A stretch of 43,929 bases of DNA from Clostridia bacterium. GTDB taxonomy: Bacteria > Bacillota > Peptococcia > DRI-13 > SV3-B141. Below the pieces are notes generated by a model, which had not been told where the DNA came from, ran no database searches, and was given only the letters and a program-made list of their open reading frames with translations. The stretch lies in contig JAHDSB010000148.1 of assembly GCA_018433015.1 (NCBI GenBank), positions 1 to 43,929 on the forward strand, in the 5' to 3' direction. This document shows positions 13,611 to 27,821 of this stretch, piece after piece. Position numbers and translations under genes: made by a program. Position 1 is the stretch's first letter; each line of letters starts with the position of its first letter.

Positions 13611-13623
13611 AAGGTATAGCTGT

Positions 13624-13681
13624 AATAAAAGCATAAGTAAAAGGGTGAGATAGTCCTCACCCTTTTACTTATGCTTTTATT
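13624..13681. terminator. Long bidirectional hairpin terminator
   Basis: Arms 13624-13649 and 13656-13681 pair perfectly over 26 bp around a 6-base loop. The arm ends are A/T-rich, giving a CTTTTATT tail on the plus strand and the mirror on the minus strand. It lies between the convergent thlA and the ArAE-type gene and can serve both. Confidence 0.85.
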
Positions 13682-13691
13682 AAAAATATCT

Positions 13692-15615: not shown

Positions 15616-15683
15616 TTAAGAAAGTGATAATTATTAATTAACAATATTTACGTATGATGATAGTAAATAATTCACTTTCTTAA
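15616..15683 (+). repeat. Inverted repeat in the leader of the PAP2 gene
   Basis: TTAAGAAAGTGA (15616-15627) is perfectly complementary to TCACTTTCTTAA (15672-15683). A further ATTATT/AATAAT pairing follows after a 2-base bulge. The arms flank about 44 AT-rich bases that may hold the promoter (TATGAT at 15653-15658). The right arm ends just before the ribosome-binding site AGAAGGGGG. Confidence 0.5.
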
Positions 15684-20978: not shown

Positions 20979-21028
20979 TACAGCATGAAAAACAGACGGT
21001 AATTTAACCGTCTGTTTTTCATGCTGTA
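20979..21028 (+). terminator. Perfect 22-bp hairpin terminator
   Basis: Arms 20979-21000 and 21007-21028 are perfectly complementary around the loop AATTTA. The right arm includes CTGTTTTTCATG. It lies after the transporter stop at 20953. Confidence 0.75.
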
Positions 21029-25929: not shown

Positions 25930-25989
25930 GCCTTCTTGCCAAGATAAGCCTATTCAAGTATACTTATATGTGAAAAATTAACATTAGAT

Positions 25990-26175
25990 CAATTAGGTGC
26001 CTTATTTAAGGAGAATAGGGAATGGGGTGAAAATCCCCAGCGGACCCACCACTGTTACTGAGGAGCTGCTGCATGCATGGAGGTTGCAAGTCACTGATCT
26101 AAAGCGGGTAAAGCTTTAATCTCGGGAAGACTGCAGTAAGTAATGATTCAGAGCCAGGAGACCTGCCTGATTTGA
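25990..26175 (+). ncRNA. Cobalamin (B12) riboswitch
   Basis: The B12 box AGCCAGGAGACCTGCC is at 26152-26167. The upstream core shows GGGGTGAAAATCCCC, GCGGACCCACCACTG and the GCATGCATGGAGGTTGCAAGTCACTG arm region of the class (in pieces from 26033 to 26098). A terminator hairpin with U-tract follows at 26196-26227, so binding of adenosyl- or other cobalamin should stop transcription before cobT. The 5' boundary is approximate. Confidence 0.95.
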
Positions 26176-26195
26176 TTATTGAAATGGATGAAGGC

Positions 26196-26227
26196 AAAAT
26201 CCACGGTTTAATTACCGTGGATTTTTT
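26196..26227 (+). terminator. Terminator (expression platform) of the B12 riboswitch
   Basis: AAAATCCACGGT (26196-26207) and its complement (26214-26225) form a perfect 12-bp stem around TTAATT, with T continuing to 26227. It lies 40 bases before the cobT start. Confidence 0.9.
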
Positions 26228-26267: not shown

Positions 26268-27308
26268 ATGCAAGGATTATTGGAAAAAACGGTACAAAAA
26301 ATTAGTCCTATAAACCGGGAAGCTGTAGAGAAAGCTAAGGAAAGACAAGATGGTTTGTTAAAGCCCCCGGGAAGTCTGGGGAAACTGGAAGATCTTTCCC
26401 TAAAACTGGCCGGCATTTATGGAGACCCTAAGCCTCAAGTGCAGAAGAAAGCTATAGTATTGATGGCCGCTGATAATGGTGTTTATGAAGAAGGATACAA
26501 CAGCTTTCCCCAAGAAATAACAAAGAGTTTAGTAGAATTAGCGGGACCGGGTTTAATCGGGGTAGCTGTTTTATCCCGGCATGTAGACAGTAAATTGGTA
26601 GTTGTTGATATAGGTATTAAAGGAGAGGTCAAAGGAGAACATATTCTTCCTAAAAAGATAAGGCAGGGAACCGCCAATATTGCTAAAGGACCTGCTATGT
26701 CCAGAGAAGAAGCAATCAAAGCAGTGGAAACGGGTATAGAAGTTACAAATTCCCTTATTGACGAGGGTATCGGTCTATTAGGTACAGGAGAAGCAGGGAT
26801 CTGTAATACAACTACTACGGCCGCTGTAATTTCAGCTCTTACAGGTATAGAACCTGAACAGGTTGTAGGAATGGGTACCGGTGGAGATGAACAGGCATAT
26901 CAGAAAAAGCTTCAAGTTGTTAAAGATGCTTTAGCACTTAATAAGCCTAATCCTAAAGATCCCATAGATGTTTTAACTAAGGTAGGTGGATTGGATATTG
27001 CCGGTTTGGTAGGCTGCTATTTAGCGGCAGCGGCCAGGAAAAAGCCCATAGTAATTGATGGGTTTATTGCAGGGGGAGCCGCCCTTTGTGCCCTTAAAAT
27101 AAATCCTTTAGTAAAGGATTATATGATTCCCTCCCATTTATCTAAAGAAAAAGGAGCCCAGGTCCTTTTGGATGCTCTAGATATGGAGCCTATGCTTTTG
27201 ATGAATATGAGATTGGGAGAAGGAACAGGAGCCGCCTTAACTTTTAATATTATTGATGGTGCATGTAAAATTATTAATGAGATGGGTTCTTTTGCTGATT
27301 TAGAATAA
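26268..27308 (+). CDS. cobT: Nicotinate-nucleotide-dimethylbenzimidazole phosphoribosyltransferase
   Basis: The 346-aa enzyme activates the lower ligand base of cobalamin (dimethylbenzimidazole or another benzimidazole or purine) to its alpha-ribotide. Family motifs are PPGSLGKLEDL near residue 33, MAADNGVYEEG, LGTGEAGICNTTTTAA, GTGGDEQAYQKK and the catalytic-Glu region LGEGTGAAL. ATG 26268 follows AGAGGAG. It is alone behind the B12 riboswitch: no cobS, cobU or cobC is adjacent, so its partners must lie elsewhere or the cell uses it for remodelling. It probably supports B12-dependent enzymes outside the window. Confidence 0.95.
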   Translation: MQGLLEKTVQKISPINREAVEKAKERQDGLLKPPGSLGKLEDLSLKLAGIYGDPKPQVQKKAIVLMAADNGVYEEGYNSFPQEITKSLVELAGPGLIGVAVLSRHVDSKLVVVDIGIKGEVKGEHILPKKIRQGTANIAKGPAMSREEAIKAVETGIEVTNSLIDEGIGLLGTGEAGICNTTTTAAVISALTGIEPEQVVGMGTGGDEQAYQKKLQVVKDALALNKPNPKDPIDVLTKVGGLDIAGLVGCYLAAAARKKPIVIDGFIAGGAALCALKINPLVKDYMIPSHLSKEKGAQVLLDALDMEPMLLMNMRLGEGTGAALTFNIIDGACKIINEMGSFADLE

Positions 27309-27332
27309 ATCATTAGCCTAATTAAGAAAGTA

Positions 27333-27447
27333 GAAGGGACTGTTACACAAGGAACTGCTTTCCTCAAGGTAGACAAGGTGGTAGAGATCCACTACCGAAA
27401 GGAGAGGAGCTTAAGGGACTGAATTGTCTAAGTGTAACAGTCCTTTT
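27333..27447 (+). ncRNA. Structured RNA element of unknown class ending in a U-tract
   Basis: An outer stem pairs GGACTGTTACAC (27337-27348) with GTGTAACAGTCC (27432-27443), and TTTTT follows as in a terminator. Inside are three further pairings: AGGAA/TTCCT (27350-27354 with 27360-27364); TAGACAA/TTGTCTA (27370-27376 with 27424-27430); and, within the latter, GGTGGT/ACTACC (27377-27382 with 27391-27396). The result is a branched fold of about 110 nt. It may be the 3' terminator of cobT with an elaborate loop, a small RNA, or a leader element for the downstream operon. I do not recognise a known riboswitch class. Confidence 0.5.
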
Positions 27448-27498
27448 TATATTTTAAATTATAAAAAGTTCATTAAGGTTCATTCTCATGAAAAATGA

Positions 27499-27516
27499 TT
27501 GTGAAATATTTGACAA
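27499..27516. promoter_or_regulatory. Rex operator
   Basis: TTGTGAAATATTTGACAA differs at a single base from the perfect palindrome TTGTGAAATATTTCACAA recognised by Rex repressors of Firmicutes. It overlaps the -35 element of the hydrogenase promoter, so bound Rex would block RNA polymerase. High NADH/NAD+ would release it. The rex gene is the last gene of this same operon. Confidence 0.88.
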
Positions 27517-27538
27517 ACTGACCAACTAGGATTATATT
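27510..27538 (+). promoter_or_regulatory. Sigma-A promoter of the hydrogenase-rex operon
   Basis: Perfect TTGACA (27510-27515), a 17-base spacer and TATATT (27533-27538). The start codon of the first gene follows 34 bases later. Confidence 0.85.
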
Positions 27539-27572: not shown

Positions 27573-27821
27573 GTGGAAGTTACCGTATGTGTAGGAAGTT
27601 CCTGCCATTTAAAAGGTGCTGCGGGTGTTGTGAAAAAATTTCAGGAAATGGCAGAACAATATCCTATATATAATATAAATCTAGGCGGCAGCTTTTGTCA
27701 GAATAGATGCAGAGAAGGCGTAATAGTTGCTATAGACGGAATTATTTATACAAGAGTTAAACCGGAAGAAATCCCTCAACTATTGGAAAAACACATGAAG
27801 GGGGAACAGCTAAGTGACTAG
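27573..27821 (+). CDS. NuoE-like [2Fe-2S] thioredoxin-fold ferredoxin
   Basis: An 82-aa protein with the NuoE/TRX-like ferredoxin cluster pattern C-x4-C (CVGSSC, Cys6 and Cys11) and C-x3-C (CQNRC). It is shorter than NuoE/HydC subunits, having only the cluster domain. It likely passes electrons to or from the hydrogenase encoded immediately downstream, whose gene it overlaps by eight bases. No NuoF-like flavoprotein is in the operon, so its redox partner is unclear. The start is GTG 27573 behind GGAGGGG. First gene of the Rex-controlled operon. Confidence 0.88.
   Translation: MEVTVCVGSSCHLKGAAGVVKKFQEMAEQYPIYNINLGGSFCQNRCREGVIVAIDGIIYTRVKPEEIPQLLEKHMKGEQLSD

Follow-up and report, generated by a model that had tools for sequence, protein, structure and literature searches.

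The window analysed here is a 43,929-nucleotide stretch of DNA from a Clostridia bacterium. Between the stop codon of its cobT gene and an [FeFe]-hydrogenase operon lies an element of 115 nt (27333-27447), which starts 22 nt past the stop codon and ends 123 nt ahead of the next gene. Immediately 5' of cobT is a cobalamin riboswitch (25978-26184, 97 bits against Rfam), with a 12-bp terminator hairpin (26196-26225) standing between the two. Between 27814 and 32479, the hydrogenase operon codes for a pair of [FeFe]-hydrogenase-like proteins. The first of these has a weak PAS match, and their genes are separated by one for a SpoIIE-type phosphatase. The operon is possibly a sensory hydrogenase system. 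The features of the locus are:

26268-27308, forward strand: cobT, nicotinate-nucleotide--dimethylbenzimidazole phosphoribosyltransferase (TIGR03160, 412.6 bits, cut-off 319.3; PF02277; open reading frame), whose transcript is presumed to be ended by the element
27331-27348, forward strand: 5' arm of the outer stem, perfect core 27337-27348 (stem search)
27349-27357, forward strand: AAGGAACTG, left copy of a 9-nt near-direct repeat flanking the insert, 8/9 identical (sequence, collapse test)
27358-27412, forward strand: apparent insert of 55 nt at the palindrome tip, which folds into an inner hairpin; terminal inverted repeats not found (collapse test, fold)
27413-27421, forward strand: AAGGGACTG, right copy of the near-direct repeat, identical to outer-arm positions 27334-27342 (repeat search, collapse test)
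27413-27446, forward strand: alternative compact terminator hairpin, 27413-27421 paired with 27438-27446, 9 bp, 16-nt loop, -9.8 kcal/mol (z = -2.15, 6 of 200 shuffles as stable)
27432-27449, forward strand: 3' arm of the outer stem, running into the U-tract, perfect core 27432-27443 (stem search)
27442-27453, forward strand: T-rich tract past the stem, CCTTTTTATATT, like that of an intrinsic terminator (sequence)
27510-27538, forward strand: promoter-like site TTGACA-17-TATATT, 11/12, for the hydrogenase operon, 3' of the element (promoter scan)
27573-27821, forward strand: thioredoxin-like [2Fe-2S] ferredoxin, which opens the [FeFe]-hydrogenase operon (PF01257, 27.4 bits, cut-off 24.8)

The initial annotation had described a perfect 12-bp outer stem with a U-tract enclosing more than 80 nt, and both points were borne out. 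The core of the stem pairs 27337-27348 with 27432-27443 across 83 nt, and the stem reaches about 16-19 bp in the minimum-energy fold when G-U and A-U pairs are counted. A perfect stem of at least 12 bp arose in only two of 5000 dinucleotide shuffles of the element, and the whole 115 nt folds at -46.4 kcal/mol (z = -5.3), a stability that none of 200 shuffles equalled. The outer stem runs into a U-tract, TTTTTATATTTT; six of its 12 bp are G-C pairs, followed directly by TTTTTATATT, which is the arrangement of a GC-containing terminator stem. Long-range stems (at least 11 bp, loop of at least 60 nt) are not enriched genome-wide, with six entries, among which this element is entered twice, versus 29 in three Markov replicates. 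Elsewhere in the window, perfect palindromic hairpins of ~27 and ~22 bp with 6-nt loops (13623-13682 and 20979-21028) are probably terminators, and another wide-loop hairpin, a 12-bp perfect inverted repeat with a 44-nt loop, lies at 15616-15683.

Folded by itself, the inner 83 nt had z = -1.4, a stability matched by 19 of 200 shuffles, and its best part, 60 nt picked post hoc, reached z = -2.5 (3/200). Because the inner region lies near the level of its shuffles, the stability of the element comes mostly from the outer stem. At least three further helices had been described inside it. The 7-bp pairing among them, UAGACAA/UUGUCUA, is present (27370-27376 with 27424-27430, 47 nt between), but a meaningful branched structure is unsupported, since a perfect 7-bp pairing appeared within the inner 83 nt in 197 of 1000 shuffles. 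This pairing also crosses the predicted inner hairpin and competes with a small 3' hairpin, so that the helices cannot all nest together. The branched picture is a plausible predicted fold that the sequence does not single out.

Comparative searches gave no support to a structured RNA of unknown class, as the element had first been described. At gathering score, Rfam contains no family for the element and matches only the cobT cobalamin riboswitch in the window; at E up to 10, there were only sub-threshold matches, the best of them to the AfaR small RNA (RF02515). AfaR resembles the element in its outer stem and U-rich tail, whereas the inner structure is not common to the two, and the score of 25.7 bits is so far under the gathering score of 100 that the element is not a member. 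BLAST of the element against its own genome, 100 genomes (own included), plasmids and phages gave no full-length homologue. Screening 46 class genomes with a covariance model built on the element (R1) turned up no homologue that keeps the inner helices; in the collections searched, the element's own family is represented by its own genome alone. As far as these collections reach, then, the outcome that the initial annotation had named as speaking against its reading, a lack of relatives with the inner helices, is the one observed.

The same results bear on a suggestion that the element makes a small RNA. Either the cobT transcript, at its 3' end, or a separate promoter might give rise to a stable small RNA that the outer stem terminates and in which the inner helices are functional. 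Small RNAs derived from 3'-UTRs are common, the stability of the whole element would suit one, and a weak promoter-like site (ATGAGA-18-TAGAAT, 9/12, 27277-27306) would start transcription just upstream. That site means little, because the scan found 10 promoter-like sites against 6.3 +/- 2.2 expected. The inner part is not clearly more stable than shuffles, and the searches gave no Rfam match at gathering score and, in the 46 class genomes, no homologue that keeps the inner helices. The several GGA motifs might be bound by CsrA, but a PF02599 search had 0 matches in the own genome, compared with matches in 3 of 14 control genomes, and we rejected a CsrA-titrating RNA on this count. We consider a small RNA unlikely. 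An HDV-like ribozyme topology, with the 7-bp pairing as its pseudoknot, was likewise rejected: no G starts the would-be P1, and the pairing is at chance level.

The position of the element, just after a gene and ahead of the next promoter, is that of a terminator. Two genomes of family f2 (G001 and G008) have cobT followed by the same hydrogenase gene, and in both the gap contains a plain hairpin, GAGGGATTAATCCCTC, then TTTTT. The same gaps (L038 and L039) carry TTGACA-17-TATGCT, read by eye, at a place matching the hydrogenase promoter-like site. These nearest syntenic relatives have a plain terminator at the place equivalent to the element. A CobT protein search of the genome contigs gave 16 relatives, none of them close (best 52% identity). 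The element most likely closes the cobT unit and lies outside the hydrogenase leader, barring read-through. A cis-regulatory role, another option raised at the outset, finds no backing here: a separate promoter-like site, downstream of the element, serves the hydrogenase operon, and the element has no Rfam match at gathering score and, in the 46 class genomes, no homologue that keeps the inner helices.

One feature argues against a terminator: loops of 83 nt, as in the outer stem, are unusual among terminators, and in one survey more than 90% of hairpins have loops under 13 nt (PMC8355165). The alternative hairpin at 27413-27446 has a loop of 16 nt and, taken alone, the layout of an ordinary terminator. 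The 3' arm thus has two mutually exclusive pairings, which raises the question of a ligand- or protein-responsive attenuator, in which this arm would switch between the near partner (27413-27421) and the far one (27334-27348), perhaps with the 7-bp pairing as an alternative fold. A 9-nt direct repeat occurs in only 37 of 1000 shuffles, and a cobalamin riboswitch precedes cobT, both of which would fit such a device. However, both pairings end at one U-tract, so that switching would leave the output unchanged. The hydrogenase operon has its downstream promoter-like site, the 7-bp pairing is expected by chance at the frequency given above, and the 9-nt repeat is accounted for by a palindrome family and an insert, as set out below. 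An attenuator is very improbable. Neither a small RNA nor a regulatory switch has positive support beyond the strong fold.

Scattered through the genome is a family of palindromic terminators, roughly 50-57 nt long, which the two ends of the element match. Across 25 genomes of the order, R1 recovered only the element and palindromes of 55-57 nt: five in the own genome (56-57 nt, E 0.008-0.35) and, at E <= 1 in the other 24, a single 55-nt palindrome without insert, in G002. Under stricter filters, the 46 class genomes yielded one more weak match (G031, E = 0.2, 109 nt), which we read by eye as unrelated and did not accept as a homologue. The left 22 nt of the element (GGGACTGTTACACAAGGAACTG) align to one half of a palindrome at the end of contig C175 with a score of 24, and the right 36 nt (AAGGGACTGAATTGTCTAAGTGTAACAGTCCTTTTT) to its other half with a score of 35; among 20000 random 64-mers of the own genome, three reached the left score and none the right. 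The summed score against C175 was 59 for the element and 52 for the family member on C125, with the next at 38 among 222 terminator-like hairpins from 440 kb of the own genome. As the reference palindromes were reached through an element-derived model, this resemblance was partly selected for, and the hairpin control and the coarser-grid control described below answer that point only partly, because the sample included C125, which was chosen after a weak BLAST match. The pattern search that first pointed to the palindromes on C180 and C63 gave 20 matches versus 23 in its control.

A second model (R2) was built from the contig-end palindrome and those on C180, C63 and C125, with the element excluded. 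Run on the own genome, R2 recovered its sources along with palindromes on C160, C43 and C72; it also matched a second repeat, which lies at the ends of C20, C32 and C14. The matches listed at E <= 10 number 25, both strands of a palindrome counted. Within the order, 16 of the 25 genomes had a match at E <= 0.1; many of the weaker matches are, by eye, merely other strong terminators, and, judged by sequence, the clearest relatives come from G010, G012, G014 and G004. Even with filters off, R2 did not recognise the element whole (best 10.1 bits, over 27398-27450), which we attribute to its 64 extra nt. Membership of the family is therefore claimed only for the element without its insert.

The extra length can be removed by one cut. 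When the element was collapsed at every possible place, the best cut anywhere was exactly 64 nt, with a score of 114 versus 71 uncollapsed, in five equivalent registers from 27349-27412 through 27353-27416. The 64 nt are accounted for by the 55-nt insert together with a single copy of the 9-nt near-direct repeat, and the collapsed element, at 56 nt, has the size of the palindrome family and folds as a single hairpin (-30.5 kcal/mol). On a coarser grid, the element scored 106, against at most 55 for 220 terminator-ended segments of the own genome and at most 62 for 300 random segments; the 221st terminator-ended segment is the C125 reference itself, which scored 175. BLAST found no second copy of the 55-nt insert in the genome. 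Since the insert is absent from every other member seen, a gain by the element is a simpler reading of these sequences than a loss of the 55 nt from all other members.

Near-identical palindromic terminators also lie within about 90 nt of the ends of four contigs of the own genome (L094-L097, found with R1):

C196, 83-139: contig-end palindrome
C124, 86-142: contig-end palindrome
C148, 100131-100187: contig-end palindrome
C175, 41151-41207: contig-end palindrome

By BLAST, these copies match at 99-100% over 137-162 nt. The same sequence continues past the palindrome toward the contig end, so that they mark one terminus of a repeat present in four or more copies. This suggests that the palindrome-capped repeat is a multicopy mobile element whose interior, which we did not find, is absent from the assembly. 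Searches of the repeat gave no tRNA, no Rfam match, no plasmid match and no viral contig with the family pattern. A second contig-end repeat (L120, L121 and L124, found with R2) has a similar layout but a different sequence; it starts with GGGAGTGTTGCAAAAC, followed by a palindrome and then TTTTTT:

C20, 46216-46270: second repeat
C32, 21009-21063: second repeat
C14, 59203-59254: second repeat

In G002, one contig end (C29, L093) carries a terminator palindrome, and only a few bases beyond it comes sequence that we take to resemble the start of a group II intron.

These caps raise the question of whether the element itself is a miniature transposable element (MITE), its outer stem a terminal inverted repeat and termination a by-product. 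The same kind of palindrome caps the repeat common to four contig ends, and a similar cap is found on the second repeat at three. Against this, the full element is single copy by BLAST, no target-site duplication is visible by eye around 27331-27449, and the contig-end repeat is not established as an insertion sequence, its interior not having been found and the plasmid and viral collections giving no match. We therefore hold a MITE to be doubtful. The REP/REPIN route was rejected: there is no Y1 transposase in the genome (PF01797, Y1, RAYT transposase, 0 matches), which speaks against it, and the full element is single copy. More tentatively, and with appreciable reserve, we propose that palindromic terminators capping a multicopy mobile repeat were scattered through the order and adopted as host terminators, and that the cobT copy then gained a tip-duplicating insertion, with it two alternative 5' arms, and survived the split.

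The surroundings of the family members are those of gene ends. We inspected 19 sites, among them the element and the contig-end copies, with a crude ORF finder; the nearest predicted ORF of at least 60 aa mostly ends close by. Convergent ORFs end on both sides at 23 and 20 nt on C63 and at 30 and 18 nt on C43, and in other genomes at 30 and 23 nt (G010, C185) and 10 and 5 nt (G004, C44). On C175, C32, C14 and C72, one side has its nearest ORF pointing the other way or sitting further off. In nine rows of the model-fitted alignment A5 (22 rows in all), picked by hand at one row per site with L117 and L120 omitted, 185 of 219 cells of the shared pairing pair, and 12 of 25 pairs show changes on both sides versus 1-5 pairs when the partner is slid; these counts lean to structure because the alignment was fitted to that structure.

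We found no description of this palindrome family in the literature searched, coverage of which was partial. The repeated stem-loop sequence families of Cozzuto et al. (2008, PMC2267715) are likewise short dispersed palindromes, mostly intergenic and some of them related to insertion sequences; in the parts of that paper available to us there is no mention of the present family, and the window copy differs in its tip insertion. In low-GC Firmicutes, according to Petrillo et al. (2006, PMC1590033), stable intergenic stem-loops are mostly terminator-like; they often carry a complementary A-tract on the 5' side and cluster at the 3' ends of genes. The element resembles these bidirectional A-tract/T-tract intrinsic terminators, so described, in its stable stem right after a stop codon, its 3' U-tract and its partly complementary A/G-rich 5' side; members of the palindrome family are likewise found mostly at gene 3' ends, several of them between convergent genes. 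It differs in having a loop of 83 nt with a hairpin of its own.

Taken together, the evidence makes it quite probable that this element ends the cobT transcript as a Rho-independent (intrinsic) terminator, descended from the dispersed palindrome family and with its tip widened by an apparent 55-nt insertion. It is most likely an element of an ordinary kind in an unusual, stretched form, and of the three options that the initial annotation had left standing, a decorated terminator is the one that the evidence favours. As RNA polymerase leaves cobT, the 3' arm CAGUCC, just ahead of the U-tract, would pair in one of two ways: with the near copy AAGGGACUG (27413-27421), giving the compact 9-bp hairpin with its 16-nt loop, or with the original far arm GGGACUGUUACAC, giving the 12-bp perfect outer stem. 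Because the near and far pairings finish at the same U-tract, either would release the transcript there, at about 27445-27453, and cobT transcription would not run on into the hydrogenase operon, which is promoted separately.

This reading disposes of a candidate new RNA class, since most of the branched look comes from a single strong palindromic terminator with an insert. Should the link to the family hold, a terminator may tolerate an insertion of 55 nt in its loop, as the near-repeat that flanks the insert provides another 5' arm. The palindromic terminators would then form a family common to host genes and to the ends of repeated elements, with relatives likely across the order.
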